Shown here: piece after piece, positions 15,110 through 62,995 of the stretch
How the letters are laid out: each line of letters starts with the position of its first letter
How positions within the stretch are numbered: the first letter of the stretch is position 1
Assembly: GCA_949152475.1 (NCBI GenBank)
Contig: OX424561.1
Coordinates: 18,594,481-18,658,480, forward strand
Source: Terebella lapidaria
Taxonomy: Eukaryota; Annelida; Polychaeta; Terebellida; Terebellidae
Reading direction: 5' to 3'
DNA: 64,000 nucleotides
Notes under the pieces: generated by a model
Told to the model about the DNA's origin: nothing
The model's input: only the letters and a program-made list of their open reading frames with translations
Database searches by the model: none
Position numbers and translations under genes: made by a program

Positions 15110-16132
15110 TTAATAAAAAAACTTTAATTAAATAAAAAATCATTTTGCTTCTGTCTCAAATAAATCCAAAGATATGGTCACATGTGACATGTGACATCCA
15201 TCTCGAATATCATTCTAGATACACCCTTGGTTTACCAGCGTGGTTCCAACTAGAGGGCGGTCGCAGGAGGCAGTCATGGCCGCACAGGTGTCCCCCGGCA
15301 CGTTTCGTAATAAAGTGTATGAAGTCTTTTTCCCGATTTTTTTTATTTGTGGCGGCCATCTTGTTTTTCCGATTTCCTGAAATTCTATAGGAACCTACAT
15401 CAGGACCTGATGTATGTGTACAAATAATTCCGTGATAATATCTTATTATGTTTCTGAATAAAATGCGTGACGTCATTTTCCCGAAAAACTTCCCGACTCT
15501 GTGCACTAAAAAATTCCTTTGTACAAAGTTACATGCTTTTCAGATAGTGAACCTAATCTTGATATATATATATACTGGACTATAATAATCTATTCTTCGC
15601 ATCGTTTTCGCCATCCATAGGAAACAACTTACTGATTCAACATATCACAAAGCCAGACTAAACATCTTGTCACTCGTTCTGTCACTTCTGTGTACTTCAG
15701 GCATTCGCAGTATGCAGGATTGACATTTTTAGCAAAAGAATGAGCTCAAATCAATTTGCGTACAATTCGTGAATCGATAGTACTATATTTCGACATGTAG
15801 TTTTGAATACGTGTGGTATCAAACAGAATACATGGGATCGTCCTCAGTAGTCTAGACATAATTGTTCAATGATGGTGACGGATCCCTTTCGCTTTTTCAT
15901 TGTTGACCTTATATCCAACCATAGTAAGTGTCTGAAGTCTGATTTCAAATGGAAGGTATGTCTCGATAGATGGAGATCCCAATGTTGTTTTGAGACATAA
16001 CGCTAGAATGTGTTGTGTCAATAGCTCCAAATAACAGACAATCGAAACCAAAACACAGAATGTCCGATCATGATTATAGAGTAATTGCGCTCTTGACATA
16101 GAACAAGCAAACCCAAATGTGTGATTTGCTAT

Positions 16133-16306
16133 AGGGCCTGTAAGTCACGTGGTGTCATGGTGTGATTTCCGGTGGCAAACAAACATACACCTTTTGTTTA
16201 TTATGAGAAGAACTCCATTCAAAACTCAAATTACTCAGATAACACAAAAGGTGTATGTTTGTTTGCCACCAGAATCATACCGTGACGGCACGTGACTTAC
16301 AGGCCT
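16133..16306. mobile_element. PIF/Harbinger-like MITE with 3-bp target duplication
   Basis: Ends AGGGCCTGTAAGTCACG and CGTGACTTACAGGCCT form an inverted repeat that extends, with interruptions, through a CAAACAAACATACACCTTTT block (about 65 bp per arm). TAT flanks it on both sides (16130-16132 and 16307-16309). The paralogous site in block A copy II (TAT at 41257-41259) has a single TAT and no insert. A 3-bp A/T target duplication fits the PIF/Harbinger superfamily. Length is 174 bp, with no coding capacity. Confidence 0.8.
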
Positions 16307-17980
16307 TATTGCTCATGCAGCATATAATAGTTGTTGTCTCACTTGTTTCACATTTGGATACTCTCTGTGAAACTTTTCTTTCCGTGGTGTGATGTGTGAC
16401 ATATCCCCTTATGAAACGGCTTTGTCGAACAACCCCTAACAGTCGACGTCTAATGTTGACATCGTCTGGCTATATGTGAAATTTTGCACTCAACGTGAAC
16501 AGGATGATTCCACACGCTCGGGCGGGCTTTGCTGAGTAAAGAATCAAATCTGTATATAACTATTTTATGTCATTTATGAATCATGTATTCAACGTGATCA
16601 AGAGTATTTCCTATGTTTTGACAGGTGTTACTATTTGTCACAATAAGAGTCACAAACGTTTACATCTAGAAATAATTACAATTTCATGAAAGTATTTTGC
16701 GAGTCCTTTGATGAAACTTCTCTGCATAGTTTACGATTTGTGTTTGTCCATTGTGTGTTGTTGCGAAGAAGCATCGGAGGTTTCACAGGAAATTATTGGT
16801 GTGGTTTTTATGGAGGTATTCGGAAGGCAAGAATTTTGATATTTCGTGACTGTTCTAGAGCAGTCGGGTCATACTTCTTCCTCTTATTTGTTGAACAAAT
16901 CGAATTCCAAAATGCCAATAACAATTCTTTCTTGCAGTTTATCAAAATTGCACCCATTTATGATCGTTGCTCATGCAGTCTACTTGAATATACACAATTT
17001 TTAAAGCGTCTAATAACTGAAATATTGCGATGACTTGTGATGGGTGAAGCATCCTAAAGTAATTAGTGCTTTGGTATTCATCTCCCTGCCGTATGTCTAT
17101 GTAAAATAAAATTCCGAATTATTCCACAAGATCATGGTGAGGCCAGTAAAATACCACGGAAATATTTTTCTGAATAAAAACGAAGCTCGCCAACACTCAA
17201 AATCCACACTGGCGTCTGAGCGGTGGGTAATATATAGTTGCTTCTATATATAGTTGTTTCTATTTACTTGATGTAACCGGGTTAATTTTGTTGAACAATA
17301 GACGACATATCTAGACAGAATAATGGTGATTTATCTTGAATATTTATATAATATTTCATTTTTGATGAACCACGGTCACTGCCTCTCGAATGACACCGAC
17401 TCAAATTAACACCACTCGAGCGAAGGGTACACCGTGCAAACTGAATCAATTACATTCTGGATCTAAAGCTGTATCAATCAAAACTGGAATGGAATGGAAT
17501 TCGTGGATGAACAAACGAAAAACTATGAGACAAATTAAGTACATCACCAGAAAACTAGAAACCAGCGTTTCGCTGGTGAAAACCACTAGTTCGCTGGTGA
17601 AAACTTGATATATTGTTTTCTGCACACCGCCTACCTTTGTCAACTTCAAGCTGACATCGGCGTGATCTTCAATGAGAGGGCTTAATATCTTATGCAGGCA
17701 TTAAGGTTTTTTTTCCATATAAACTTTCCAGTAAAAAAAACAAAATGTTCTAATGTTGTTGCATAACATCCATTCTCGTCATCATAAATGTGTCAATTCA
17801 TATAAATTCTGGTATCAGTTATCAAAAAAATGTTATAGGAAGTTCGTATTTACTCAAATTTACCACCCCTGGCCATACTGGTGTACTGGCCATATCATGT
17901 TAGTATAAATTCGCCAGCTTTGCCACCACCATGAAAATGTAGCTTTGGCATAGTGAAATTATAAACATGATTCTCATGGT

Positions 17981-18140
17981 CACCATAGACGTGACACATG
18001 AACAAATGATGGCATCTTTTCTGAGAAAAAAAACACCATAGACGTGACACATGAACAAATGATGGCGTCTTTTCTGAGAAAAAAAAACACCATAGACGTG
18101 ACACATGAACACATGATGGCATCTTTTCTGAGAAAAAAAA
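17981..18140 (+). repeat. Tandem repeat, three ~54-bp units
   Basis: Units start CACCATAGACGTGACACATG at 17981, 18035 and 18088, and each ends in a GAGAAAAAAAA run. The paralogous position in copy II (near 44336 and 46438) has only one diverged unit (CACCATAAATGTTATACGTG), so the expansion happened in copy I. Confidence 0.85.
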
Positions 18141-19145
18141 ATATTCCATTGTATCCATGCATCCATAGTATGTGCTTTTTCCATTCTAAAACACTCGACA
18201 GTTTTGATTTTTGTTTTGATTTAATTTCATTAATATGTGATAACCTACATATGATGTCAAGATAGTAGTATATCACACCAATAATGGGGCATGTATCTCC
18301 GTGTGATCGAACCTATCATGCCCCGTGGGGAAGCCAGTAGTTTCTCGAAATTGGCCACCTTAACCTGAAACATGATCTAATTGGATTTCCGATGTCAGAG
18401 TAAGAAAGCAGAATCCTTTGCCATTTAGGGCATGCGTTTGGCCTAGAGACAAATATAAAGTCATACTGTCTTTCTTTTGGAACAAATATAAAGTCATACT
18501 GTTTTCGGTGATTTTATTTTGACCTTGAATAAATCTGAAAGATCGAAAACGAGGTAGCACATTGGGCCAGTTTTCACTGGTTAGCCACAGGCAATATAAT
18601 TTGAAATATGTGATACACCAATCATGTTATGTATTAGCTTGAACATAATATGTTTGTTGATCGCGAGACCCTGATATTTCACAACGTTGTTCCATTAATT
18701 ATGTGAATCTCATATCAAGTACTTGAAAACATGGCATGTGGACATATCAACATTGTGAAAAAATATTTAATTCCAACGTGTACACATTCGACGACCTGTG
18801 CTAATAACAATCCCTCGAATATCCATGAACGTGGATGTGACAGTTCATAAGTAAGTGTGGTTCAATGTTAATATGTGTGTCCATTCATACAAAATAATGA
18901 ACATTAATGTGACAACGGTTCGTGAATAAGTTTGATTTAAATTTGACAGATGAACATCGGTGTCAAACTCACAAAGCCGAACTCACATTGTACAGCATAT
19001 GTCCTGCCTGCCATATGGGCAGACAGTCGAGATGTACATGTAATGCATCACTCTTCTGAGCAGAAGTATCATAGGCAATAACTCATCGTTGGCAACAACT
19101 CATCATCTTTCAAGTCGCGTGGTTTTAGGACACGTGTTTTTTTTT

Positions 19146-20405
19146 TTAGCTTACCAGCCCATATGGGCCGATAAGCTATTGTCGTGGTTTTTCGTCCGTT
19201 GTCCGTCGTCGTCGTCCGCTGCATCATCTGTTAACTTCTTTTTTTTCGGGCTGATGAATTAGCCCATAAATTTGTGTTAATATGTGTTGGGCCAATACAC
19301 CCAGACATTTTTTTTATTGAATCGTTTATGCAGTTTTGACGGCCATTTTTATGCCGAAAATGGCTGTTTTTGCATGTTTGCAACTTCAAAAATTATTTTC
19401 TCAAAAACTGTCCGATCAGTTTTGAGATTTTAGTTTCAAAATGTTCCCCTCATATATCATTGTAACCAAAATAATGATTGATGAATTTGTGAATATATAA
19501 TTTTTTTTCTGATGAACAAGTACATGTTCAGCTGTCTGAGTTTTATTGGTGTATGATTAGGGATGTTTCTGGTAGTCCTTGGGGAGGCAGCATACCGCAG
19601 CTGACCTCTGGGCTGCCAGTATATTCCGAGTCATCAATAATATTTTGTTATCGCTAGCTATAATCAGTTACTGGTATCATTGTTAATACTATTATATTTG
19701 ACATACGTCTTGCTTATTGGTCAATTACAATTTTGATTGATGAATTTGTAAATACAGAATGTTGTTCTGATGAACCAGTACATGTTCAGCTGTATAGGTT
19801 TTATTGGTGTCGGAGTAACTGTTATACTTTCAACTGTATGGTGCTGGTGGATTTATTTTTTAATTTTGTTGTTGTTGTATATTTGATGCACTAATTTTGT
19901 CCCTCTCACCGGAAAGATCTTTGTATAGGCATGTCCTGTTGATCAATCCAAATAAATATTGTTTATGAAAAAAAAAATCATTATAATGTGTATAAGTTTC
20001 GATGCTCTTGAATCACCGGTCTGCGTGTGGCGGCCATTTTGATGTTTTTTATGGGGCCCAAATGGGACTTCCCCATGTTAAATTCTCCTATGCTTTATAA
20101 TGGGTCACAATCTTCCTGATACCTCACTTAATATTGCGATTAGAGACTTGGAATCAATTGTTTCACATTTAGGAGATGATATATGCTGTATATTCTCGTG
20201 ACCTTGAATATGACCTTTGATATCATTTTCAAGGTCAGAGCACAAAATGGCGCATATCTCATTTGTTGTCAAGTTTACAGCTTAAGAATCAATTGTGGAC
20301 ATATGGGAAATGATTATGCTGAATATACTTGTGACCTTGTAGTTACCGGACGATGAGTCCGATCACCTATTTGCTAGCCGTTAAGCTACAGGTCCCTTGG
20401 GCCTA
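19146..20405 (-). mobile_element. Hairpin-ended composite element, family 2, copy D (reverse orientation, with nested insertions)
   Basis: The plus-strand start TTAGCTTACCAGCCC-ATAT-GGGCCGATAAGCT and the following GTCCGTCGTCGTC tract are the inverse of copy C's right end. The far end (CCGTTAAGCTACAGGTCCC, then TTGGGCCTA) is the inverse of a C-like left end. Two foreign pieces lie inside: a retroelement fragment (19470-19976) and, at about 20340-20372, a terminal hairpin of the AGGTTACCGGAC subtype (TTACCGGAC-GATGA-GTCCGATCACC). The copy is thus a mosaic of two subfamilies. Confidence 0.65.
19470..19976 (+). mobile_element. Nested retroelement 3' end with poly-A, internally duplicated
   Basis: The piece ends AATAAATATTGTTTATG followed by an A-run and interrupts copy D between its 'cctcatatatcattgta' and 'aatgtgtataagttt' text. 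The sequence ATCATTGTA before it and ATCATTATA after it could be a slightly mutated 9-bp target duplication. Inside, a ~95-bp stretch (GATGAATTTGTGAATA... through TTTTATTGGTGT) occurs twice, at about 19477 and 19738. No coding region is recognisable. It may be a SINE or the 3' part of a LINE. Confidence 0.55.
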
Positions 20406-23400
20406 TGTTTTACATAAATGATCATTCCCAGTTTCGGACACTGCAAATGATGAATACTCACACGTCAACGGCTTATTTAGAGAACCCCCTGCCACCACTC
20501 CACACATGTACTCGTAAATGGTAGCAACATTTACTGAAACGGCCATTGTTTTAAGCATTTACACTACTTTCAACAGCAAACTTATTTTCTCATGATCAGC
20601 TCAAATATGGTTTAAATTAATAATTAACATTTGTCTGGTTCTGGCATTTGTGTTGGGTGAGCTTTGTACAATGGGCGGTGTCCTACAAACCCATGGAGTC
20701 AAGAAGCTAAAAGGGAACGAAGTTATTAATATTCATCCGAAGAATATACAGCTATACTCAGTTTGCAACTGTCTGGTTTTTTATCCCACTGTCAGTGACC
20801 TCTTTCGTGTATACACATTTGAAGCTTTCGTTTTTGTGAATAGCTGGATGAAAATTGACAAAAACTACTACTTGTATGTCTTCTGTCAAATTGAGTCAAG
20901 TTGCCACCCAGACGGTCTCCTAGAACATCCATGAAAGACTACAGTGGGACTATCAAATTACAGCCTGTTGTACATAGAGTGGAACATAATATCCCGAGGA
21001 TCACGGTCTCATTGTTGCAATGAAAACTGACTCCTGTTATTTGACCGAAACCTTTCCAGCCTGTAAAATGCCTGTCCTTGAACTCGCAAATTCACATATG
21101 GTCCAATAAATGCACATCTAATAGTTCTATGTGTACGATGTCACGATATTAATATCACAGTGACAATGTATCACATACATTATATAGTATTTGTTTTTAA
21201 CATGACATTATATTTTGATACAGAATATAGTGAATACTAATCATGCAAAACTATAAATTAATTTTCCCATTTTCAGAAAAAAAATGCATTTCGAGTATGG
21301 ACTGCACATAGGAATTTTGTGACTGCAGCGACCCATCATATTATTAATTCTTACGCCTGGACATTCTCACAAAGTACCAAAACCTTCCCAAAAAGCAATC
21401 ATATGCACAGGTCATGTTCAGACTTTTTTTAAAAAATACACACCTGAAACTTGGCAGATAATTGTCGTTCAACTCCCAGTTGAAATTTGTCAAATCACAT
21501 GATAATATATTTCATAAAGATGTATATAAACGGCATTTAAAGCCAATGTTGACTTTTGAGGCTAAATTCCTGTTTCCATAAATCTCTTTCAAAATTTGTT
21601 AGTTCATTGCTCTCGAATCAGCGACCTAAATTTGAAATTTGAAGAAAATATACCGTCTGGTTAATGGAATAACATTTTGAAATAACATATAAAATATTCC
21701 TGCAATGTGCTATGTTTTTTCCGTTTTTGTAAAATATAGTATCATCGTCATATTTGATATTTTTCAAGCGACAAAACTCATATTTTGTATCAAAAAGACT
21801 ACAGATTTTCATTTGTTGGACAATTCTGCCCAATACAAAGAGCAGACTCCGGGCTGGATGCATTTATTTGTGTGAGATACGGTACAGTGTCCAACGCAAA
21901 AAAACCTGACTTCTTATGTAGCCATGTCACATAAAACACATAGAGTAGGACTCGTAATCGTGATTTCGTGTCGAAGCCGCTTTGTGGTTCGAATTTTTTG
22001 TTGATATTCCATTAAGTTTCGGTATGATTCATCAATACTTATTTGACCCATACAAAAGAAAGATGGAGATATCAGATATTCCAAATGACCTATTCAGAGT
22101 TCTTGGTGGGACATGATCACAAATACAAAAGGTGATGTATTATTTATGGCCATCATCTAATCTTTGTGCAACTGGCCACATCGGCCACATCATTGCGGAA
22201 CGACAAAACCGGCAAAATTTATATATTCAGGACCAGATATCAGATCGAGCATAACTGTGATCTGAAAACACAACTAGAATATGGCTATGCTGAACATTCT
22301 GATAAATGTGCTGTCGGAGCAATTACACGCCGGTGTGAGAGAAGCGGATGTCCGATGGTACTTATCAGCACTCAGCCGGCAGACACCGCCACCCAATCGG
22401 AGCAGGAAGGGGAGGACATGGAGTTCGACATTTTATAAATTCCATTCAGTGATTTTGTCCGCCTGCTACTTGAGAGATCTTAGGAATCTGTTAATAGACA
22501 AGTTTTTGACATACTCTCAGCTGTAGATTGCTAACCATAGAGAACACCTACACGGCTTGTCTGGTACCTACCAATTGCTGTAGCCACTATCTTAATGTCA
22601 TAGTCATGACCTCCATGAAGACCGCAGCACGACAAGAAATTATTTGCCCATTTGATTTCCCAGTAAAGATGTGATATGATACGCTGCAAATGTTTGAGGT
22701 CAAGCCGTTCTGATGGATATTTTCACAACGTGATATATATACATATAGATGTCCTTGTTGTTGTGTAGACCTGTAACTTCTCCTTGAACTAGTTGAAAAT
22801 GACGTCACAAATCCAGAATTAAGACCCAAGTTTCTCTTTTTACTGATGTTCTATCTGATGTCAATTGTACAAAAGAATTGCTTTTTCATACAATTCCCAC
22901 GGGATGACACGGTCAATCTGACAACACTATAGAAGCAATGATTGCAGTACCAAAGTAGCAATATATGAGTATTTACAAAATTTTACTGTTGAGAAGAGTT
23001 TTAATTTCACAAAAATCGTTTTAACTTGATAAAAAATGGGAATGACGACTTTTAACTCTGTGATAACAACTTTACAGATAATGATTTTACTTTAGCGTTC
23101 CTACATGGTTCTGGTGTGTTTCCGTTATTGTTGTTAATTTGTTATAATGAAGGGTTGAATTGGCATCGTTATCGTTTCTGTTATTCTCGAAAATTCTGCG
23201 GTTCTCTTTGTAGTTAGGTTATATTCGATTATGTATCATTCATGAAAATTCAAATGATTTTCATTTCACCACATGACAGCTACTGATAGAAAATTCATGC
23301 CAAATTGGAATGTTATTGTGATCAATCCACAGTGTTCTAGTGAGAGTCCCAGCGAGTCCTCGTGAGTGACTTTTATATATCAATTATTGTTTAAAATAAT

Positions 23401-23569
23401 TGTGTATTTAATTATATGTCTATAATTCTTTGTATAAAATACTTTGTATATTCCATGGCTGAATGCATTTTAACTACAAATACCTACCATTATTTGTATA
23501 CTACTAAGTACATCTCAAAATATATTTCATTGAATAATATCATCAAAGCATACATTCCTCGTCCATATA

Positions 23570-23918
23570 ACAAAATGGCCCACTTCGAGAGATCAAGCGC
23601 AACGAAACTTATACACGTCATAGGAGTACATATTTGGAGTGGTATGTATCAGAAAGAAAAAATGTTTCTAAACAAATTTTGAGAAAATGGCCACCAAAGT
23701 CCAAAATCAGGCATTTTTTGTCGAAAACGGCCGCCATTTTGAAAAAAAAAGCGAAAATAAAAAAACTAAAAAATACTTCCTCCTTGAATTTTTTAAAACA
23801 TTTTTGTGCAAAATTTCAGAAAAAAATCGCCTGTAAACAAAAGATAAAAAAGTGGACGACGGAAGACGGACACAATGCCATGCCAATAGGTTATCGGACC
23901 ATAGGTCCGGTTACCTAA
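23570..23918 (+). mobile_element. Solo right end of a family-2 composite element (copy E)
   Basis: The sequence 'caaaatggcccacttcgag...gagaaaatggccaccaaagtcc' and the terminal hairpin TTATCGGACC-ATA-GGTCCGGTTACCTAA match the right third of copy F (45975-46358). The tandem cores and left end are missing. The AT-rich sequence before it is not recognised. Confidence 0.7.
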
Positions 23919-24930
23919 AAAGTCTTGTTGTTGTGAAGTTTATCACGACAAAAATGCCATATTTTAATGATTAGATGTCATAAGGTAGAAAAATACACAA
24001 GACGTTTTAATGTAAAAAAAATAACAAAACATTAACGTGATAAATATGACAAGACTCCTTGTTGTGATATTTTCACACATTATGATATCTAATCATTATA
24101 AATTTCCACGTTATGATGTCTTGTCGTGATAAACTTCATGCTGAGATGACTTGTGATATTGACTTGTGATAAGACATTTTGCTGAGTATATCATGTTAAG
24201 AAAACTTTACATTTCTTCAAACTGATTGCGCACTGTGTAAAACGACAAGCCATGTTGGTGATCAAAGTATGCTTCCATAGGTTACCTCAACTAAAGCGCA
24301 CTTCTAAGCTATCCATCCATAAAATAACAAGACGCGTTTTAAAGGTGATGAATTGAACTGAAATCGTTTTATATGATTTGCGAAGTGTAACTAAGAAGTG
24401 CACCTAAGAATTTTAAGATGTTTGAAGTGTATCTAATAAGTGTGCATCTTCTTAGAAGAGTCTACCTATGAAGTGTACGATTTGTGCAGTGTTCACAAGA
24501 AGTGTACCTCTTCTTATTGTAGAAGGTGTACACTTATTTAGAGACGATAAGGCTCAGGTATGTTATACAGCCCTACAGTATTACTCGTAGTGTTGTTTCT
24601 CAGGTGGTTGGATTCGTTCGACTACAACCATACATTCGTGAAGTGCAAGTAATATATACTGAAGCCCGGCGCGTAAGCAGCACGTCGCCACAACGCACGT
24701 GCGTACACTTTCTCGTACAAGTTTTTCCTATAATAATACAACGTAGATATTAAAAGTTTAGGCAAGCGTGACACGATATTTTATTATTATTATTTTTCCA
24801 TTGATTTAACCTGTACCGCACACATGTGTATACATGTATTGTGTCATTGTCATAAACCAAGCATGATATATTATATAGGCTTATATAATACCATACCAGT
24901 TGCTGAAAATTAAGCTATAAGCTTTTCCTA
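23919..24930. other. Unassigned AT-rich sequence
   Basis: No supported gene. Motifs such as 'gacaagac(t/g)', 'ttgttgtga' and 'ttatcacgac' recur in both orientations at 23920-24190, giving loose inverted repeats. 'aagtgtac(c/a)' recurs at 24370-24540. These look like local low-complexity expansions. Confidence 0.35.
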
Positions 24931-24932
24931 TT

Positions 24933-26195
24933 TTGAAACAAAAACCAATGGCATATCAATATCATAATCAGCTCCTCGATAGTCGCCAATCTGCTTATCG
25001 TAAGCACTACTCGACAGAAACCGCACTTGTTAGGGTATACAATGACCTTCTCACCCAGTTAGACAGAGGTCACAATGCTGCACTCATCCTCCTCGACTTG
25101 AGTGCAGCTTTTGATACCGTCGATCACTCTGTTCTTCTTCATCGACTGCACTCAAGGTACGGCATCACAGGCACGGCTTTGAAGTGGTTCAGTTCATACC
25201 TCCAAGGCAGGACACAATCCGTGTCAGTCCGCGGAACCACATCTGACCCGAGGTCACTGGCATGTGGAGTTCCCCAGGGTTCCGTACTAGGTCCTGTTTT
25301 GTTCAACATGTACACAGGACCGATCGGCGATATCATCTCCAGCCATCACTTGCAACATATGACATATGCTGACGACACGCAGATATATGTTACTGTACAT
25401 GATCAATGTGACCTCGACAACATCAACAGATGTCTAGAGGACATTCGTTACTGGATGGGAAGTAATATGTTAAAGCTGAATGACGGTAAAACTGACCTGA
25501 TATTGTTCTCATCCAGACACAGGACTACATCTGATATCAGTGTTACCATTGGTGAGACAGAAATCAACTGTTCTTCGGAGGTCAAGAACCTGGGTGTCTT
25601 ACTTGATCGGCACCTGAACATGGACGTCCACATCAAACGAATTGTACGCACTGCATCTTCCATGTTGCGATACATTGGACGTTTGCGAAAATACCTGGAT
25701 ATCAAATCCACTGAGAGGTTAGTCCATGCCTTCATCACATCCAGGGTGGACTATTGCAATGGTCTACTAGTGGGACTCCCTTCGATAAGACTTCAACATC
25801 TTCAGAGGTTACAAAACATTGCAGGCCAGATTGTTGCAAGAACTCGCAAATACGACAATATCACGCCCGTCTTGCAACAACTCCATTGGCTCCCCGTCCA
25901 GTACCGCATCCAGTACAAGGTACTGTTACTGGCATTCAAGTGTCAACGTGGCATTGCCCCAGATTACCTGGTTTCCCTCTTGACGCCATGCAGCTCCAGC
26001 AGAGTCCTTCGATCCTCCTCCCAGGCCAAGTTACAAGTTCCCAGAGTACGAATGTCATATGGTCAACGTTCTTTCTGCTATGCAGCTCCACAACTCTGGA
26101 ACAAGCTTCCACTAGAACTACGTAACTGTGATGATATTGAGCGTTTTAAATCTGGTCTTAAGACATTTTTGTTCAAATGTGCCTTTGGTGTTTAA
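24933..26195 (+). CDS. Reverse transcriptase of a 5'-truncated L2/CR1-like LINE
   Basis: The 420-codon open frame (TTG at its start; first ATG at 24948) encodes the palm and thumb of a LINE reverse transcriptase, which copies the element's RNA at a nicked target. Visible motifs are ILLDLSAAFDTVDH (about residues 52-65), CGVPQGSVLGPVLF (111-124), the catalytic YADD (145-148) and NMLKLNDGKTDLILF (188-202). A C-terminal LHWLPVQYRIQYK block is typical of the L2/CR1 group. The apurinic endonuclease and the reverse-transcriptase fingers are missing. The protein could not mobilise alone, yet no stop or frameshift interrupts the rest, which suggests a fairly recent insertion. Confidence 0.85.
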   Translation: MKQKPMAYQYHNQLLDSRQSAYRKHYSTETALVRVYNDLLTQLDRGHNAALILLDLSAAFDTVDHSVLLHRLHSRYGITGTALKWFSSYLQGRTQSVSVRGTTSDPRSLACGVPQGSVLGPVLFNMYTGPIGDIISSHHLQHMTYADDTQIYVTVHDQCDLDNINRCLEDIRYWMGSNMLKLNDGKTDLILFSSRHRTTSDISVTIGETEINCSSEVKNLGVLLDRHLNMDVHIKRIVRTASSMLRYIGRLRKYLDIKSTERLVHAFITSRVDYCNGLLVGLPSIRLQHLQRLQNIAGQIVARTRKYDNITPVLQQLHWLPVQYRIQYKVLLLAFKCQRGIAPDYLVSLLTPCSSSRVLRSSSQAKLQVPRVRMSYGQRSFCYAAPQLWNKLPLELRNCDDIERFKSGLKTFLFKCAFGV

Positions 26196-26365
26196 AATGT
26201 TTCTTTCTAGTCTGGTTCTAATCTGTATATTGTTTGTTTTACATTGTTTTCATTATGTACCGTTTTACCACATTGTATTAATATTACCATGTCCAGCGCA
26301 ATGAGAGTTTTTGCTGTATTGCGCTTTACAAGAATAAATTATTATTATTATTATATTATCTAATC
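24933..26365 (+). mobile_element. L2/CR1-like LINE, 5'-truncated, with TTA microsatellite tail
   Basis: After the stop codon at about 26195, the untranslated region runs to GCGCTTTACAAGAATAAATT and then a (ATT)n tract ending near 26360. A tail of this form is known from L2-type LINEs. The insertion lies in the 23.3-27.9 kb stretch of copy I that has no counterpart in copy II, where blocks A and B are nearly contiguous near 57100-57180. Target duplications could not be identified. Confidence 0.8.
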
Positions 26366-27555: not shown

Positions 27556-27559
27556 ATAA

Positions 27560-27850
27560 AAATTAATATGGAACGAACACCCACAAGGTATGCCGAGCGA
27601 ACAAAATCGAGTCCGTTATCCAATCTCAAAGTCAAATATCAGGTAAAATCGACAACATTGTATGGGAATTTCATGATCCTCTATTATATGGCCATAGGGA
27701 GGTGAAATCAGGTGTTCCGGAAAGAGTGAGCGTTTCCTGCCCCACTTGAGGCACTCGTCATGAATTCCAAAACATTAACATGCAAAAAGTTCTTGCTGTT
27801 GTTGACCGATTTAGTGTACTTATCAACCAGATAGTGATGACGTCCATAGA
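27560..27850 (+). repeat. Fragment of block C
   Basis: The sequence aligns by eye with 36860-37150. Shared text includes 'gtccgttatccaatctca', 'gaggtgaaatcaggtgttcc', 'agagtgag' and 'gatgacgtccatagaatt'. It sits directly before block B copy I, out of the A-B-C order, so it is a displaced piece. Confidence 0.65.
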
Positions 27851-28872: not shown

Positions 28873-28935
28873 TTACCCTCGCCCCGATAGGGGCAGAGGG
28901 TATTGCAATTGGGTCTGTCCGTTTGTATGTCTGTT

Positions 28936-28967
<32 letters not shown>

Positions 28968-35742: not shown

Positions 35743-35760
35743 GTCTATTGGTGCATTTAT

Positions 35761-46793: not shown

Positions 46794-46799
46794 TTCCAC

Positions 46800-48466: not shown

Positions 48467-48479
48467 TCACACAGACACA

Positions 48480-50996: not shown

Positions 50997-51248
50997 AGGG
51001 GCACTGTATGGGATTCGGCTTTTGAGGGATTTCCAAGATTTTTCTCCCGACGCTTCTATTTATAGAACAAAAGGTCAGATTAGGTTTTTCACCCAAGATC
51101 TCTACTGAGCCAATGCTCAGACCAGCCCAGGTCGGCTCGGCAGAGATCCTAGGCCAAAAACGTCATCTGACGTTTTGTTCTATAAATAGATGTGTCCGGA
51201 GAAAAATCTTGGAAATCCGCCAAAAGCCGAATCCCATACAGTGCCCCT
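50997..51248. mobile_element. Long-palindrome MITE flanked by TTAA
   Basis: The two halves are inverted copies of each other for over 100 bp: AGGGGCACTGTATGGGATTC at the left and its inverse at the right. TTAA flanks both ends (50993-50996 and 51249-51252). The small open frames on the two strands are mirror images from the arms. TTAA flanks suggest piggyBac mobilisation. Confidence 0.8.
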
Positions 51249-51252
51249 TTAA

Positions 51253-52101
51253 GTGGGAGTCCAGTCAAAATGAAAAGTGTCTCAATTTTGAAATGTGAAA
51301 AATTGCATCTCATGGATTAAGGCAGTTTTTACAGAATGTTGATATCTCAATTTACTAAAAAGTTATGACAACATTTTTGGTGTAATACTTTCCCGCCAAA
51401 ATTGACACCTGATCAAGTATTAAAATGAGTATTCATGACGTCACACCAGTACTTTAAGATAATTAGCAACATATAACTCTTGATATTTCACCTTTTGCCT
51501 ATTTTGTCGCGTTTGGTATTAAACATAATCAGAATTTAATAACCTAATTTCGTCACCAAGTGAACAACGCCCGTAATATTGCCCTTAGCAACGGTGGTTG
51601 CTAGGGGCCCAAACTTCATGAATATGCAAATTTTTCGTCAAATATATATTATAACATTCGTGTCTTTCATTTAAAACATAAAATAAATGCCTTATCATCA
51701 TGATAACTCTCTTTAGTTACGAGCAAAGGTCCCTAGCAACGGCGTTGCTATGGACAGTATCTAAGGGATGGATGCTATGGCGATGTTCGACTACACATAT
51801 TTATGGTATATTTTTCATTGGGATGATACAACAATATATTTTGTGATAATATACGTAAAGGACACAGATTTAGCATCCGAATATAACTAATTAAAACAGT
51901 TTTGCTGGTGTGACGTCATGAATACTAATTATAATACATAATTAGGTGTTAATTTTGGCGGGAAATAATTTGAATAAATCATCATAACTTTGGAACCAAT
52001 TAAGCTATCAGCATGCTGTAAAATACACGTTAATTCACACGATTCACTCTATTTTCATGTGCCAAAACTAACAAATTTCCTACTATGACCAGACTCTATC
52101 T
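51253..52101. mobile_element. Second TTAA-flanked inverted-repeat element, abutting the first
   Basis: It shares the TTAA at 51249-51252 on its left and ends at the TTAA of 52102-52105. Left AGTGGGAGTCCAGTCAAAAT and the inverse of right AGATAGAGTCTGGTCATAGT are imperfect inverted repeats. Further in, TGACGTCA-containing blocks (about 51438 and 51911) and 'ggcgggaaa'/'tttcccgcc' also pair. Each half holds a GCAAC/GTTGC palindrome (about 51587-51604 and 51733-51751). No transposase is visible. Confidence 0.65.
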
Positions 52102-52225
52102 TTAAGTTTCTTTCTCCCGCTTATATCTTCAAAGGTGTTTGCCTGTGAACATACTTCTTTAAAATGTGTAGTCTTTTCATAGAAACAAAATGAACAGAAA
52201 GCTGTGATTAACCTTTTCACTACTC

Positions 52226-52290
52226 ATGGTTACGCTGCGTAACCATACCACTCCCGTACTGCTGTATTGATGGTTACGCTGCGTAACCAT
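52226..52290. repeat. Two identical 21-bp palindromes, 44 bp apart
   Basis: ATGGTTACGC, T, GCGTAACCAT occurs at 52226-52246 and 52270-52290. The surrounding sequence is unassigned. It could be protein-binding sites or a small expanding repeat. Confidence 0.8.
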
Positions 52291-52830
52291 GACTTTGACA
52301 AACAATAGATGTTTAGGTAACCGTCGACTGATTGTACTTAATGTTATATGTACCCGAGAATGTACCTACACGCTAAACTAGCACATACATATTGCCACTG
52401 ATTTGAATTTAGAAGCTTAATTGACTATTCAATTAACTGAATAATTAACCTGCAATTAACCTTGTGACGTCACAAGTACCGATTACGATGGGTCGGACTG
52501 CAGACAATTTTCACTAAAACTTTAATATCTTCATAACTAATCAAGATTTTGATATACAGTAAACACATTCAAAACCCACGAGATTCACTTCATCACAAAT
52601 TAAAAAGACTACAAGTACTCAAGTAAAATGTATTGGGTTATATTTCATTACAAATTCGAAAAAGGATGTAAGATAAAAAAAATTGGTAACAGCCATCTGT
52701 TTAGTCGCTGGATTTTTTTCTTGTTTCCATGGTAACCAATGGCACGGGGTCGAAAAGGATACTATATATAAATAGCACACAATAATATGACTTCATTTTC
52801 ACACATAATTATTCTGAAACATCTTTAAAC

Positions 52831-54591
52831 GAGACAATCAGAGATTGCAGACCCTCGCCCTTCAGATTTAGTCACTAAAATTAGGCGATAATTGAGAGTT
52901 TTGGTCTTAAGACCATCGGTTGTACGCCATACGATTGGGAATTGGCCAAAGAAAAATACAAAAATAGGTTGAACATTTAATATTGATTAGAACCGGAGTT
53001 ATAGTCAATTATGTGATTTTATTTTTTCAGTTGCCATGGCAACCGTTTTCAGCCGATTTTGGCAAAATTTGAAGGGGATTGAGCCACTTTCATAGCACTC
53101 CAGCCCTATAAATTTCAAATCTATCGGACCGTTTGCCTTTGAGTTATGAGCGCAGACATTTGCACTGAAACGTCGCTGGCCAAAAATAACCGAAATCGTG
53201 ACCCCCAATTTTTCGACATCCGGCGATAATGGAGAGTTTTCGTCGTACGACCATCGGTCGTACACCAAACGATCGGGAATTGGCCAAAGAAAAATACAAA
53301 AATAGTTGGAAAAATTAATATCAAATAGAACCGGAGTTAGAGCCAATTATGTGATTTTCTTTTTTTCCGTTGCCATGGCAACCGTTTTCATCCGATTTTG
53401 GCAAAATTTTAAAGGGTCTGAGCCACCATCATAGCACTCTAGTCCTATAAATTTCAAATCGATCGGACCGTTTGCCTTTGAGTTATGAGCACAGACATTT
53501 GCACTGAAACGTCGCTGGCCAAAAATAACCGAAATCGTGACCCCCAATTTTTCGACATCGGGCGATAATGAAGAGTTTTCGTCGTACGACCATCGGTCGT
53601 ACACCAAACGATCGGGAATTGGCCAAAGAAAAATACAAAAATAGTTGGAAAAATTAATATCAAATAGAACCGGAGTTAGAGCCAAATATGAGATTTTCTT
53701 TCTTTCCGTTGCCATGGCAACCGTTTTCATCCGATTTTGGCAAAATTTTAAAGGGTCTGAGCCACCGTCATAGCACTCTAGTCCTATAAATTTCAAATCG
53801 ATCGGACCGTTTGCCTTTGAGTTATGAGCGCAGACATTTGCACTGAAACGTCGCTGGCCAAAAATAACCGAAATCGTGACCCCCAATTTTTCGACATCGG
53901 GCGATAATGGAGAGTTTTCGTCGTACGACCATCGGTCGTACACCATACAATCGGGAAATGGCCAAAAAAAATACAAAAATAGTTGGAAAAATTAATATCA
54001 AGTAGAACCGGAGTTAAAGCCAATTATGTGATTTTCTTTTTTCCGTTGCCATGGCAACCGTTTTCATCCGATTTTGGCAAAATTCTGAAGGGGCTGAGCC
54101 AGCACCATAGCACTCTTGCCCTATAAATTTCAAATCGATCGGGCGGTTTGCCTTTGAGTTATAAGCGCAGACATTTGCACTGAAACGTCGCTGGCCAAAA
54201 AAATTCGAAACCGTGACCCCCAATTTTTCGACATCGGGCGATAATGGGGAGTTTTGGTCGTACGACCAACGGGCCATATATCATATGATCAGGAATTGAC
54301 CATAGAAAAATACAAAATTAGTTAGAAAAATTTATCTTAAATAGAACCGGAGTTATGGTCAATTATTGATTTTTACATTTTCCGTTGCCATGGCAACGGT
54401 TTCTGTCCGATTTTGACAAAAATTGAGGAGGACCGAGCCACGGTGATACCGCTTCTTCCCTATAAATTTCAGGACGATCGGACCATTCGGTTTTGAGTTA
54501 TGCGCGCGGACAGACAAACAAACAGACAAACAGACATACAAACTGACAGACCCAATTACAATACCCTCTGCCCCTATCGGGGCGAGGGTAA
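52831..54591 (-). mobile_element. Satellite-bearing composite element, family 1, copy 3 (five ~338-bp units)
   Basis: Same ends as the copy at 2421-3837: GAGACAATCAGAGATTGCAG at one side, the CCCTCTGCCCC/GGGGCGAGGG hairpin at the other. One extra unit makes it 1761 bp. RFX-type palindromes lie at 53030, 53369, 53708, 54045 and 54384. Two central units are 339 bp (113 codons) long, so one minus-strand frame (53347-53976, 209 codons) runs across both. In the other copies the 337/338-bp period breaks it, so I regard it as accidental. Confidence 0.85.
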
Positions 54592-57500
54592 TAAAAATCA
54601 TCAAACATAAAGAAATCCTATCAATTCATACATGAATCAGCTCAGTATGGAGGTTGATGGGTGGGTCAGTAGCGAAAAGGTTAATATATTGCAATTGATA
54701 GTTCTAACATCATGTTCACGTTCAAGCCGCACCCTATACAATGGTAAACTAAACGATTTAACGTACGTGGAACTGTCTGCTGGTTTCAGTTTTGTGTGTT
54801 GTGCCAAGAGTTTGATGCAGATGACAAAATCAATAATTTGATGTGTTGTTCTGACATCTCGACCAGATAGATTGCATGGAAAGGAAGTTGCATTAAGAAG
54901 GAAAGCCGAACGACTTATATTCCTCTGAAACATCCAAGGTCAGTAGAATTGTAGATTTCTTTGATAAATCATATTGATAATATGTTGGCAGACATGTATC
55001 AGTATGAAACATGTACCCCGCCAGAAACTGTGGTAATTTATGACACGTGGAGTACAACGTATAATTGCTAGATAGCCAGTGTACAGTTTTATAAATAAAT
55101 AATTGATAATATAATAGTATAATATGAAATACATGATATTTTGTCCGGCGGTTCAAGATATACCGGGTATCTATTTAAGGTATAGCTATTTATTAATATT
55201 ATCGTGGAAATACACTTTTAGTTGATCTAGGATGCAGTCCAGCCAGAAAAGGGAGCTGTTTCTCTGTCAGAACGAGTAACAGATGAGGTGAGTTGAATAA
55301 AAACTAATTGTATCTGGTGATACTCCATCCATGTATATCTATACACTGTCTGCCCTGCTGTGGTTTCGATCATAATTGTTTGGTCTTGCTTTGTTTTGAT
55401 CAATTTTGAATGTTTATTAACGTGCTATGTTTTTCCCATTCTCCCTGTAAAAGACTGCTGTGAGGATCTTATTATATTCTATTTTACATGTATAATAAAT
55501 TTAAATTCATTCTGCATGTATTTCTTAGAGTAATGTCAAACAGCATCTTTCAAGGCAGAAAACTCATCATTTGTATCCAAAAAAAGTTACAGATCTTCAT
55601 TTGCTGGACTATTCTGCCCAATACAAAGAACAGATCCGAGATAGATGCATTTATTTGTGCGAGATACGGTACAGTCCCCAATGGAAAACCTGACTTCTTA
55701 TGTAGCCATGTCACATAAAACACACAGAGTAGGACTCGTAATCCTGATTTCGGGTCGACGCCGCTTTGTGGTTCTGGTGATTTGTTGATATTCCATTACG
55801 TTTCGGTATGATTTATGGATACTTACTTTGGCCCATACAAAAGAAAGATGGGGATATCGGATATTTCAAATGACCTAATAGTATCCAGAGTTCTTGGTGG
55901 AACATGTTCACAAATACAAAAACAATTATATATTATATAAGGCCATCTTCTAACCTTTGTCCAACTGCAACTGGACACACTGTTGGCTACCTCATCGTGG
56001 AATGGCAAAAGTTCATATATTCAGGATCTGAAAACACAACTAGAATACGGCTATGCTGAAAAATGCTCATGAATGTTCTGCCGGTGCAATTACACGCTAG
56101 TGTGAGAGAGATGTGATTGGTCGATGGTACTTATCAACACTCAGCCGGTAGACACCGTCACACAATCGAAGCAGGAAGAGGGCGATGGGGAGTTCGACAT
56201 TTTATAAATTCCATTCAGTGATTTTGTCCGCCTGCTACTCGAAAGACCCCAGGAATCTGTTAATAGACAAGATGTTCATTGACAGCATCTCAGCTCTGGG
56301 TTGCTAACCATTGAGAACACCTACACGGCCTGTCTGGTGCCTATCAGTTGCTGCAGCCACTATCTTAATGTAGTAGTGATGACCTCCATGAAGACCGCAG
56401 CACGACAGTAATTATTCGCCCATTTGACTTCCCAGTCAAGATGTGATATCATACGCTGCAAATGTTCGAGGCCAAACCTTTCTGGTGGATATATATAGAT
56501 ACCTGTTTTTGTCTGGACCTGTAATTTCTAGTTGAACTAAAACTAACATTTTGAAAATGACCGAAATTCTCCCAAGTAAAATTGTCACCCAAGTTTCTGT
56601 TTTTTGATGTTCTATAAATGTCAATTAAACAAAATTTGCTTTTCTACGCAATTCCCATGGTATCGCACGGCCAACCGGACTATACTATTTATAAAAACCA
56701 CCAATAATCTGATTTAGAGTATCAAAGTAGCATTTTATGATTATTTACAAAATTTTACTCTTGAGATGAGATTTAATTTCTAAATATCGTTTCAACTTTA
56801 TCAACAATGGGAAATTAGGGATGACGACTGTTAACTTTGTGATAACAACTTTACAGATAATCATTTTATTTCAGTGCTACTCCATGGTCTTGGTGTAATT
56901 TCGTTAATGTTGTTAATTTGTGATAATGAAGACTTGAAATGGCATCATTATCGTTCCTAATATATTCGAAAATTCTGCAGTTCCCTTTAAATTTAAGTTA
57001 TATTAAATTTTCTCTCATTTATCATAATTCAAACCTTTGATAATATTTTGTGAAAAACAGATTTTCTAAAATGATATAAAATAACTGGTAATGAGAAATG
57101 ATATGAAATAATGCATACTATGTAAGAGAACTTGCTTTGACAAGTTTGACAAGTGATTTGACAACATCACTGCTGTTGGAGACTGCGTGGGTAGGCTTTT
57201 CTATACCAGAAGGATATATCAGGAGGAGAAATTGATGCCGTTATGAGACCTGGCAGAAGAAACTAAACCCTTTCATTCATGTTATTGTCGATGTCAGTTT
57301 AAAGTTGTGTAAGGCGGACAGTGTGTAGAGAAGAGGAAGTGATTCTTCAACCAGCGTCGTGCATGTTTTAATACATCTTGTGGGTGAGCAAGCTATATTT
57401 ATCAAGAATTATTCATAACTGAGTAATTATATTAGAGGATTGTATCCGGTTTTCCAGTGACGTATAGCATTTGTTTGTAACAGTTCTTCTCAATTGATGA

Positions 57501-58924
57501 ATTTCATTCGGGTGCTAGTTTTATCTCATTCTGATAGAAAATACCCATTCTAATCACAAACAGGATGTCATGAATGACAAACATTTGTTGCCATACATAA
57601 TTGGTTCCATAGGATACAAATCAATTGTCATTGCAAAGAACTGGAATAGTTTTTAATTCAGGGTGTTTGCTTTATGTAATATAGAAGGTTTATCTATCCA
57701 GTAGAAACGTTTAACAGAATTTGTTGTACTGAGTTTATATTCGTTCATATTTAGTGCATTCAGAACATTTGTTTGCCAAAAGTATGTCTTCCCGATCTTC
57801 AATGTATCAAAATACCATTAGCTATTTAGCTCTTCAGAGAATGCGTCAAGAGACGGGGACAACTGTTCATCACAAAATAACTCCTATTGTCACCCCGTAC
57901 TCCTGCCTATCTATTCTATTAGCATGTATAGAGCGTTTATGTCAACACCATGAGTAATATAAGTATGCTCAATCTGTCATGTTGTTTTTGTAAGATACCT
58001 GTTTCCTCCTCACATCGGAAATGCAACCTCATGGCATATCATCATATAATGATGATAACCATCATTACTAAGGAAAAACATGGATATAAGCTTTCGAAAG
58101 CACCCACTCGATGTTGCTGAGTGGATACCAGTACATCTGAAGCAAAAGGCACAGCATAACTAATCGGAAGATGTCAATGTAAATTCTTGACTATGAGCGA
58201 TCGTATGTCATAACCATTGGGGACAGTTGGATTGGATGAACTACCCATTACTGCAAGCGAATCGGGATAGTATTATGTAATTTTGACCTTAGAGCATCGA
58301 CACACCATAAGCGAATGTAGTTTGAAACTTCCAGTTCATACACTGTTTCTGTACGTGCGCCATAAGTATCAAACACATTGCGATCAATGTTTGAACACTA
58401 TATATTTGTGAGCCACATCCGTGGGCGAGGGTCTATTTCTGAACAAATCAGGTTCCTATATCTCGAACACTGCATCCATTCCTTGCTCTGAGATAATACG
58501 GTCGGTATTTCAGAGAAAAATATTTTTACTTTATGTGTCAGCACCAGCTTCCGAAAAGTTAAACAAAAAGAAATAGGTCAGTCAACGCTCTATGCCATTT
58601 TGTAGGGTGCTAGAAGCTCGGCCTGGTGTTGGCGACACCATGCTGGAAAAAACACAAACCAAACACAAAAAGAAAAGCCATATGCTTATAAACACGCAGA
58701 GTTACATGGAGTATCATGAAGTGTGTCACAAGTGAGTCCAACATCTTCTCGTGAACTTAGGAGTATTGAATGGTGATGTTTCACAATAGCATTTCATTTC
58801 CGTTCATGGTTGTTTGTTTGACGTCAAAAACACAATTATTATCTTTTTTGTGAATGGATATTGTGTGCTTGGAATGTGATTGTCTGAAATTTTATGCTGA
58901 TTGTGTACATACATTTTCTCAGTA

Positions 58925-60345
58925 AAACACGAAGAATATCAAAATACGTGTGCATGGCGTTCGTTTTCATGACATGATTCCAATATTATATTTGACCACT
59001 TATGATCATATCTATGATGTCACGTTAACCAAGACTAAGTAATGTAATCAACAATAAGTGTTAAGATGTAGAATAACACATAATATCAGTTCCCCCGATG
59101 TATGCGATTGGCTCGCTTTCTATGGCTATATATAGATCATTCCTTCACATGGAGAATGCCTAAAGCACACTGACCCTGACGCATGTGTGTTTTTTTAAAG
59201 CAACGTGTCATTAATGCTGCGTTCAAATCAAGTTGTGAAGACGATGCACACCGCCTGTGACGTTAATTGTTACAGGCAGTGAGTGTTGGTTTGAACACAG
59301 CATCATTAACCACGTCATCTATATCACTCGCCGTGACAATTGAGGTGCTAAAACAATCTAGTGCGAATCACTAGTAGTGAACTGAGGAACACCGTCTTCA
59401 CAACCTGATTTGAACGCAGCGTTATTGCCGGGACCCCCCAGGGCCGCGGTTTACTGGAGTTACATTGAAAATTTACGCGGAAACTGGTATTATCGCCCGG
59501 AAGTTCGATGGGACTATTTAAACCCGTACGTGGTTTTCTTACTGCAAGTTTCAGAACTTCTACCACCATTCGATAGATGTAGACACTATACAGGGAAACA
59601 CTCATGCATGCCAAATTTTACTGTTGATCACTGGTTCAACATCTGATATGGCACTGTGACCTACATTCGACATGGGGACCCTATATCAATAGTTTCACAT
59701 ACATACATTCAGTATTGCTTACTGTTAAATACACCCGTTTTAAGGCATTGATTCAGTTAAATTGAAAAGTTGGAAGATTAATTTGTTATTGATCGATTTG
59801 GTTTATAATAATCTATATAGTTTTGATTACAGTAACTGTATCACTGATGCCAATTCATTTAACTTTCTTTGTCAATATAAATATTTATTTTGTGTAAATT
59901 ATAACATGGACTAGTGTAAGAGAGCGCACAGACTAGACCTAGCTAGGCCTACTGTTCTCAAAATCAACTGTGAATATGAATCATGGTCCCCGGTTATTCT
60001 TGATGCCAAGCATCTGCGATTTTACTTGTTAGTCTTTGTTATAGAAACAGATTCTTAAAGCACGAGACTTTTTGAGCATATAAATTAGTGTGGTTGTATA
60101 CTATGTTTGATCAGAATGTAGTAATGGATGGTAGAGTAAGCAATTAAGATGTCCAATAATGTTCATTGTTTTGTTAATAATTTTATTGTTTTATTTGAGA
60201 ACAGTCAAATACTGCAGACCAATAGCAACAATTCTACATTGCTTGCCTACATTGGAATACTGTATCGAGGTGTTTTTGCTTCGCTGCTCCGAATTATCAA
60301 GTCAACTGCTTCTAAATCAGACATGTTCATAAATATTTTCCGTTG
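58925..60345. other. 1.4-kb insertion specific to block B copy II
   Basis: In block B copy I the flanking texts (CATATTCTCAGT and GACTCACAACAACTCATT) meet near 31570. Here they are separated by about 1.4 kb that begins AAAACACGAAGAAT and ends ATATTTTCCGT. Terminal repeats and coding motifs are not evident. The insertion contains the MITE at 59216-59420. Confidence 0.6.
59216..59420. mobile_element. Small inverted-repeat element (MITE)
   Basis: Arms of 28 bp (59216-59243 and 59393-59420), starting GCTGCGTTCAAATCA, pair with one mismatch. A second inner pair surrounds CACTAGTAGTG. No clear target duplication was found, so the superfamily is undecided. Confidence 0.7.
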
Positions 60346-61949
60346 ACTCAGAACAACTCATTACTGGCAAATAGGTTATCAACCTGCACTCAAAAACATT
60401 TGTGATAATAAACCTCACTCGAAGACGACTGCTTATTTTGCAAACAGCACGTTTACAAAGTAGCCATCACTTGTAGTTCACTCCCTATCAATCGTCTTTC
60501 ATCTATCATTAATATGCTCAGACTTATTGGGACTTATAAGCAATGATTAGCTTACATAAATGTTTGTTCGTTACGCAGAAAAAGGTTAATGTTTTGTGAA
60601 CGTGGTATATGTCATACGAGCATAGATATAAGTTTTTATGGCAGTTATTTTCTCTGGTGCAATTATTGCCATCTTCACGGAGTAGAAGAGTGTGCCGATA
60701 TTGATTACAAAGATTAAGGACCATGAATACATCCGGTGTAGTCTGCTTCACTGCATTCGAGTGATGACGACTAAGTACCCACAATTTTTCATGAGTGCAA
60801 TTTCCTTCATAACTATTGCATTCATGGTACAACCGACCTCCGAGAGTGTGAAACCTCAGTCAGCTGTATAATTACTTTACGTAAACCTATAATCTATTCA
60901 CAGACTGTGAACATGATAGTGCTTTACCGCTCAGGTATACAAGTTGTCAGTTCTTATCAAATAGAGACATTGTCTAGGATTTTCCTAAACACGATTCTTC
61001 ACTGACAAATCTGCAAACGTAACTGCATGAACAAAATGTAAAATATACATATGAACAAGTCGATGATCAGAACTTATATATTCAAACAAACTTTAGATAT
61101 TCAAACTTACATATATATTCAAATAGAATTCACGAATATTTATTTTCACCATGTTCATCAAACCATTTTCAGGTTGCTAGGGTATGGCTTTTCGAACATA
61201 ATTGTAAGCTATTTATTCAAGCGACTTCATTCTTAGATGATATGTAGTATATTTTTACTGTTTCCCTTAAAATAATAGACACATTCACTAGTGCATAAAT
61301 ATGTTTCATATATATGTATTTGTATTTTTGTTTTCGCTCCAAAGACCTGTGAATCTAACTGGGTTGTGTATAATACATATGATACTATAGTTTTTCACCC
61401 TTACACAGATTACGATGCCGTGACATGATACACACATTATTATTGGTTACGAAAAAACAACAGAAATTAAGCATTTATACACTTAAATTCCTTTTTTTGT
61501 ACCACTGTGCCGTATGATATGATTCGTTGAAACCTGATTGAGTGGATGACTTTCATCATCCCATACAATTGCATCCTGTTTGTTAATACTTAGTATTTGG
61601 CTGAAAGATGTTAAGCCCTTCTGATCCTCACCTATCAACCTAAAGACTATACAAATTGGTTAAGCATGTACAGGTCGGCATAAAAAACTGATGATGATAG
61701 AATCTCCCGATCATCAGAACATGATAACCTGACGATCATTGCGTGCTATGTCGACAGCATGAAATGAAGCATTTCATGCAAGTTCCAAATGATAACCTTT
61801 ATTTTTTTATATTTATTCAAGCGACTTCATTCTCAGATGATGTGTAGTATATTCTTACTGTTTTCCCTAGAATAACCTCGTTTACGATGCAATACTGCTT
61901 GGTGATCATATAAAAAATCATCAGAACCATACCACATCAACTCGTTCCC

Positions 61950-62560
61950 CAGCTCCCTAAACGATACCATGCATTTTGTTTCCTTCAATCATCACGTGGG
62001 CGTTGTTATTTACGACCGTTAGGTTTAACCCAGTGACTAGCTGAATCCGTTAGTTTTGTCCCATTGTGCGTCTCCAAGCGATGTTTCCCGAACTAGACAC
62101 AATGATTTGTGGACCAAAACACATTACCTTGGGCTGGAGTAGGCGCTGGTCATGGAGATAAATGTATACATGCAGCCAAGGACAGTATTCCTATATATCA
62201 GAAATATTTCACAATATATGAAATGGTGATATTTTCTATGTATCTACAGAGGAACAATAGCTCGGCTGGCTCTGTCGAAGAAGTTATATTTTTGACATTC
62301 ATTTTCGCCAGCGGTTGCGATAAAAAACATTAAATAATGCAAATATGTTTGTAGTCTCACATATAAAACCATAAGGCCAGGTTTCTAACTGCCTCTGTAG
62401 TGGATCCAAGGAATGGATGACATCAACCATATTGTGAACTGAAAATATCTTTTTCAGGACACACACCAGAGACAAACCGACAGCAAATGTATTTTTGGGT
62501 TTTCCACGAAAAAAGAAACAGTCGTGATCCACCAATAAAGTTCAATATCAGAAAGAATAT
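61950..62560 (+). repeat. Block C, copy II (diverged, single)
   Basis: Shares GTGCGTCTCCAAGCGATGTT, 'cccgaactagacaca', 'gatttgtggaccaaaacacattacc' and 'gagtaggcgctggtcatggag' with 36530-36640, then weaker matches to about 37350. It follows block B as in copy I. The palindromic hairpin and the recent doubling of copy I are absent here. Confidence 0.75.
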
Positions 62561-62995
62561 TAACATTACATGTATTACAAAGGAATCTGTGACCAAATTA
62601 GTATTATGTATTACTATAATATTGAAGTATTATGTTCGTTGAAAGGTATGTACGGCCTTCGAAATATGATAGTATAAATTATAATATATACATTTTGCTT
62701 TCTGATATGTTCATATTTTGAATATGACTGTATATAATAAACCAATATCAAAGTGTATTACATCGCCAATCAAATCACTCAGCATTGAAAACCTGCCGAG
62801 CAACAGTTTTTGGGAACCACCAGCGGTTAAAGACTGGTCACTTACCTGCCACATTGTCTAGACTTCCAATCCCTACAGGCTAATAACAGCAACGAAATTG
62901 GGCTGAAAACACAGGAGGAACTGCCGAGAACTTGTCACTTCTTATCTTGTTGTTTTTGATCATGTGTTTCGGAGGACAATGTTATCACAGATTCA

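Follow-up and report, generated by a model that had tools for sequence, protein, structure and literature searches.

The conventional cut-off for a segmental duplication is 90% identity over 1 kb, and inverted duplications and palindromes with conversion from arm to arm are also known. Macrosatellites, such as D4Z4 and DXZ4, consist of a tandem unit of many kilobases. They usually span hundreds of kilobases and are highly polymorphic (PMC3599962). The locus considered here, at 15.6-62.6 kb of a 64,000-nucleotide stretch of the annelid Terebella lapidaria (contig OX424561.1, positions 18,594,481 to 18,658,480, referred to as the window), is an old tandem segmental duplication. It resembles the ordinary tandem segmental duplications of animal genomes in its large, same-strand, neighboring and collinear copies, but differs from the conventional definition in that its two copies, A and B, are 0.740-0.850 alike by part over ungapped aligned positions, below 90% over 1 kb. 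It shares with macrosatellites a tandem unit of many kilobases, whereas the 64-kb window holds two diverged copies and a head fragment rather than many homogeneous copies. As in palindromes maintained by conversion, inverted arms flank a spacer; the arms, however, are only 63-74% alike in their matched pieces, so arm-to-arm conversion has not been maintained here.

Copies A (15.54-37.38 kb) and B (40.81-62.58 kb) are neighbors with the same order and orientation, collinear on the same strand, with a start-to-start spacing of 25.26 kb.

15542..37381, plus strand: first copy (A) of the unit, its insertions included, defined by the chain of matches to copy B
40806..62584, plus strand: second copy (B) of the unit, its insertions included, defined by the chain of matches to copy A
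36411..37381, plus strand: tail block, partner of 61948-62584

In the comparison of 12.0-39.6 kb with 39.6-64.0 kb, the best chain, which runs from 15542/40806 to 37381/62584, takes in 15 of the 27 plus-strand high-scoring segment pairs (HSPs) and sums to 8661 alignment columns out of copies of about 22 kb; much of each copy is not common to A and B, and at least part of this is later insertion, a point missing from the first-pass annotation. The 12 HSPs off the chain belong to the head piece at 13.1 kb (one), a 135-bp-array family (three), another dispersed family (one), the second tail copy of A (two), alternatives to the 409-bp repeats of B (two), and pieces overlapping the chain (three). 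A mask that removed HSPs in contact with dispersed families or with the second copy of the tail, as well as those beginning before 15 kb, left 17 plus-strand and five minus-strand HSPs; it was chosen once the hits were known, and some chain HSPs (18.1-19.1 and 30.3-31.6 kb) were lost with it. All 17 plus-strand HSPs are in order, a result equalled by none of 200,000 permutations (permutation maximum, 12), and no plus-strand HSP appeared in any of 20 dinucleotide-shuffled versions of the second half. The claim of a first-pass annotation that the blocks recur in the same order and orientation in the two halves is thereby borne out, the long collinear diagonal that it expected from a self-comparison being present.

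Inside the unit, a layer of inverted homology that the first-pass annotation had overlooked is seen in the minus-strand matches: segments within 15.5-18 and 41-44.3 kb pair in reverse orientation with segments within 27.9-31.6 and 57-59.2 kb. The blocks involved, designated T, H, M and N, make up plus and minus arms.

15542..18032, plus strand: plus arm C1 (blocks H, M, N), matching parts of 27.9-31.6 and 57.2-59.2 kb in antiparallel orientation and 40806-44392 on the same strand
40806..44392, plus strand: plus arm C3, tandem partner of C1
21759..32320, minus strand: minus arm C2, interrupted by a stretch bearing a long interspersed nuclear element (LINE) and by a HINE-like element
55545..61305, minus strand: minus arm C4, tandem partner of C2

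The five minus-strand HSPs left by the mask, identified from the HSP list by its rules, are all antiparallel between plus and minus arms, two for C1/C4 (15892-16136 with 58782-59039; 17577-17740 with 57197-57371) and three for C2/C3 (27899-28174 with 43784-44064; 30524-30668 with 41593-41740; 31315-31588 with 41118-41384). With repeats masked, inverted matches were found between 43793-44284 and 56963-57457 (E 1e-24), 41593-42197 and 57534-58103 (E 4e-14), and 13051-13275 and 58988-59226 (E 4e-7). The control, reversed sequence searched at the same threshold, produced six hits on one strand and none on the other, the best at 5e-5, so chance does not account for the strong inverted matches, and the weakest should not be trusted. 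The single constant block order T, H, M, N provides modest evidence against four unrelated dispersed repeats, and the simplest history would place an inverted duplication first and the tandem duplication of the whole unit later.

The divergence between A and B is uneven. Kimura two-parameter (K2P) distances with 95% bootstrap intervals and ungapped identities were calculated by part from 15 HSP pairs, with overlapping or alternative HSPs excluded; because the count takes in only alignable pieces, any bias would be toward underestimating how far the poor parts have diverged. Identity and K2P are 0.740 and 0.322 (0.293-0.354) for the plus arm (C1-C3), 0.781 and 0.261 (0.229-0.295) for the middle part, 0.850 and 0.168 (0.145-0.192) for the minus arm (C2-C4, over 21759-31584), and 0.766 and 0.281 (0.227-0.351) for T and the tail. 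At the level of HSPs, ungapped identity is 0.70-0.80 in 15.5-21.0 kb and 0.82-0.90 in 21.8-31.6 kb, in agreement with the earlier impression of an identity that varies and is lower in the first block, and it drops past about 31.9 kb. Multiple alignments of the arms, which are poor in H and M and do not enter these figures, gave 0.526 for C1-C3 and 0.863 for C2-C4 in block M (211 columns), and 0.584 and 0.789, respectively, in block N (370 columns).

The reading preferred here, though tentatively, is that gene conversion between the tandem copies made or kept the minus arms more alike. The guanine-cytosine content of the minus arm (0.390/0.372 vs 0.361/0.368) is not clearly raised, and thus gives no strong hint that conversion was biased. 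The same figures could also come from two duplication or unequal-exchange events: an older one would have produced the plus-arm and flank pairs, and in a younger one the minus-arm region (about 21-31.9 and 50-60.7 kb) would have been replaced without ordinary gene conversion; the minus-arm K2P of 0.168 against 0.26-0.32 elsewhere, with a bootstrap interval overlapping none of the other three, and the fall in identity past about 31.9 kb would suit such a history, but order and orientation are unbroken across the chain, something that a conversion tract explains too, with nothing here to separate the two. We consider this two-event history rather unlikely.

Purifying selection on a non-coding function, either an RNA gene or regulatory DNA, would likewise leave the minus arms (identity 0.850) better preserved than the plus arms (0.740), and might also account for an island in the tail (36478-36670 vs 62006-62198), 193 bp at 90.7% identity, which adjoins poorly conserved sequence and has no visible codon bias. 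It is nevertheless improbable, given that no Rfam family reached its gathering threshold in the search and no tRNA was found, that the plus arm, for all its piecewise homology, lacks an equal degree of conservation, and that the minus arm of copy A is interrupted by the LINE-bearing stretch and the HINE-like element. More improbable still, in our estimation, is the bolder proposal that the minus arms (21.8-31.9 and 55.5-60.7 kb) constitute a non-coding locus under conservation, or one at which conversion between tandem copies has long persisted; if true, they would have kept to roughly half the divergence of the homologous plus arms, a few kilobases away, despite transposon insertions. With an outgroup, the paired copies would allow gene conversion to be told from selection.

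The duplicated DNA shows no coding constraint, although short exons are possible. Among the first ten open reading frames (ORFs) scanned against Pfam, one had an RVT_1 match and one a sub-threshold endonuclease match. A scan of 144 stop-free ORFs of at least 58 aa from 12.98 kb on, in which masked array repeats and LINE stretches were excluded and four of the first ten were rescanned, returned 13 families with one member each at E of 0.05 or better, vs about seven expected by chance, and re-scans reporting bit scores gave no match above the cut-off. The best was DUF5083 (E 8.2e-5, 22.9 bits vs a Pfam cut-off of 27) for an ORF of 81 aa at 21621-21863 on the minus strand, which straddles the start of the paired minus-arm block; the other 12 families were at 0.019 or worse. 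Mismatches fall evenly on the three codon positions (352/323/326 over 81 overlapping open runs in 31 ungapped stretches of 3553 bases), the best open run was equalled in 27 of 100 shuffles, and indels are mostly not multiples of three with either of two aligners (94 of 137 and 251 of 291). Coding content was accordingly rejected as a candidate, there being no above-cut-off Pfam match outside the LINE and no codon bias. Separately, 21759-28400 had no match in phages, which says little, the collection being prokaryotic and viral.

These results also bear on the possibility that the locus is a decayed tandem gene family in mixed orientation, with blocks that are remnants of exons and introns. Local gene families typically show inverted and tandem copies of a core of a few kilobases, and the weak DUF5083 match could be taken as a trace of one; with that match below its cut-off and only 105 of its 243 bases in paired DNA, with the even codon positions and with indels that break the frame, a gene family is a doubtful explanation. 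The first-pass annotation had offered a choice between a macrosatellite and the debris of a duplicated gene region. The former is not supported within the window, which shows two copies and a head fragment, 15-26% apart over ungapped aligned positions and with different insertions; debris of a duplicated region fits, and debris of a duplicated gene region is a possible candidate, with no gene remnant among the 144 ORFs or by codon-position bias. Its broader description of an old, non-coding tandem segmental duplication agrees with the chain, the order and the missing codon bias.

Each copy contains stretches that the other lacks. In A these are 19.1-20.4 kb (the 135-bp-array family, inverted), 23.3-27.9 kb (with a LINE reverse transcriptase), 28875-30305 (HINE-like) and 32.3-36.4 kb (LINE-like); in B they are the chain gaps at 44.4-46.4, 48.0-50.1, 50.6-55.5 (which holds the HINE-like element of B, 52827-54595) and 58.9-60.3 kb. 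They would be insertions rather than losses from the sister copy, and for the HINE-like element of A the empty site is directly visible, since B reads through at about 57748/57749 between matching flanks.

28875..30305, plus strand: HINE-like element with a 338-bp array of 3.8 copies, in A only, ends read by eye
52827..54595, minus strand: second HINE-like element with a 339-bp array of 4.8 copies, in B only and at a different place, ends from BLAST
24921..26195, plus strand: LINE reverse transcriptase fragment (Pfam RVT_1), inside a 4.5-kb stretch of A without counterpart in B
32697..36201, minus strand: pieces of LINE-like ORFs split among several frames, confined to A

The window contains three HINE-like elements that carry 338-bp arrays (2411-3840, 28869-30314 and 52827-54595), the middle one opposite in orientation. 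They are 92-97% alike over long matches, with lower values for out-of-register matches, and thus look younger than the duplication. The Cg_HINE elements of Crassostrea gigas have a subterminal inverted repeat (subTIR), its inverted partner, a GTCY microsatellite, a tandem array, a 3' subTIR, a palindrome and a T-rich site (PMC7492417). Read by eye, the element at 28875-30305 has this anatomy: a 5' subTIR with a nearby inverted partner, ACCCTCGCCCC-GATA-GGGGCAGAGGGT, is followed by GTCT-type repeats, and a 3' subTIR, GGGCGAGGGT, by the palindrome CAATC-TCT-GATTG, while the T-rich site, judged against the empty site in B, has no target-site duplication beyond one or a few T. The monomer here is 338 bp, and the likeness to Cg_HINE is one of anatomy. 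A HINE with a satellite array and a GTCY microsatellite is a feature of bivalve repeats and would by itself point to a mollusc-like genome. Exact searches with the terminal pattern (viral and genome contigs) and with the core pattern (viral contigs) found no match, which says little, as these collections are viral and prokaryotic.

The LINE fragment at 24.9-26.2 kb is assigned by its reverse transcriptase domain (RVT_1 at 4.5e-25, 89 bits vs a cut-off of 29.6); 7975 relatives were scored, and few of the 120 listed are named, two of them from Oculina patagonica, a coral, which leaves the host lineage unfixed. None of the four pieces at 32.7-36.2 kb has a reverse transcriptase or endonuclease domain above the cut-off (one Exo_endo_phos match at 16.5 vs 24.5 bits, none in the other three), and for another piece four of seven homologues bear endonuclease or reverse transcriptase domains. 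The copy-specific insertions also tell against an assembly artefact in which two haplotypes were placed in tandem. An abutting duplication of 1662 bp at 99.7% identity, described below, could be such a case; for the 22-kb copies, a divergence of 15-26% together with different insertions far exceeds differences between haplotypes, and the artefact, scarcely credible for this locus, was rejected for them because the divergence is too high.

Taken together, the observations make it likely that the locus is an old, nested, tandem duplication of an animal genome. We infer the following order of events and mode of duplication. A segment with blocks T-H-M-N would first have been duplicated in inverted orientation to yield the plus and minus arms, and the resulting unit of arm, spacer, arm and tail, about 22 kb, would then have been duplicated head to tail. 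The copies would since have degenerated with no visible sign of coding constraint, each of them interrupted separately by LINE fragments, HINE-like insertions and further repeats, and local duplications on a smaller scale (1662 bp, about 2.1 kb and the 13-kb head) may have followed. The greater likeness of the minus arms, whether retained or acquired, would most likely reflect conversion between the tandem copies.

Several observations weigh against this history. The identity of the inverted matched pieces is low (63-74%), and in the multiple alignments of H, M and N the likeness between plus and minus arms is only 0.39-0.57, so that the arms are homologous in pieces alone. Three weak inverted matches fall within the range of the control (15892-16136 with 58782-59039, 1.4e-4; 15671-15798 with 59064-59189, 0.011; 49178-49348 with 55023-55191, 0.006), and the order of the five masked minus-strand HSPs alone would arise by chance once in 12. 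Past 62.6 kb nothing visible corresponds to the junction array or to the part of copy A beyond 37.4 kb. Equal divergence is expected if both arms were copied together and left alone, so a K2P of 0.17 vs 0.32 is at odds with one event and uniform decay thereafter. In block H, the multiple alignment reverses the pattern, with 0.85 for C1-C3 vs 0.57 for C2-C4 over 100 shared columns, probably due to misalignment of C2.

The event is of a known kind, ordinary genome wear that is well preserved, and it changes no general idea. Its value lies in a layered record of inverted duplication, tandem duplication and then mobile elements with the empty site kept in the sister copy, in which paired copies let an insertion be bounded nearly to the base and ordered in time.

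Several smaller features accompany the copies.

39629..40785, plus strand: 363-bp tandem array of 3.2 copies at the A/B junction
13106..13350, plus strand: further copy of the head of the first block (part of a partial plus arm, C0), matching 15689-15952 and, up to 13326, 40939-41140
7681..8418, plus strand: block T of the partial further plus arm C0, placed by inverted matches
36265..39591, plus strand: tandem duplication whose copies abut (period 1662 bp, identity 99.7%), which includes the tail block of A
44254..46764, plus strand: locally duplicated sequence in B, with direct repeats of about 409 bp on either side of a 135-bp-array element

The junction array and the head copy near 13.0 kb had both been anticipated, the former as a repeat of about 360 bp. 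The 363-bp family recurs as one inverted unit at 13487-13784 and as plus-strand pieces of the unit at 48543-48754, and the head copy has 75-78% ungapped identity to both of its partners. Block T of C0 has an inverted match to 60162-60869 (E 2.7e-42), and part of it, 7798-8047, one to 31624-31867 (E 4.7e-12). The 1662-bp duplication, whose copies overlap by two bases (TT) at the junction, does pass the 90% over 1 kb convention, and is a recent-looking event or an assembly fault. The direct repeats in B (44254-44660 and 46356-46764) are 96% alike.

Besides the 363-bp family, arrays of 338 bp and 135 bp are present. The 135-bp-array element family, which carries the AGGTCAAAGGTCAAATTCAAGGTCA motif, occurs at 4351-5705, 44988-46364 and, on the minus strand, 19138-20347; its copy at 46.3 kb carries a GAC-rich microsatellite, and the end of the element alone recurs at 8877-9229, 11317-11713 and 23584-23921. 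Two arrays with a 22-bp period, at 42971-43343 and 43616-43763, are mutually inverted and up to 95% alike, and an imperfect palindrome of 262 bp at 50992-51253 matches its own reverse complement at 84%.

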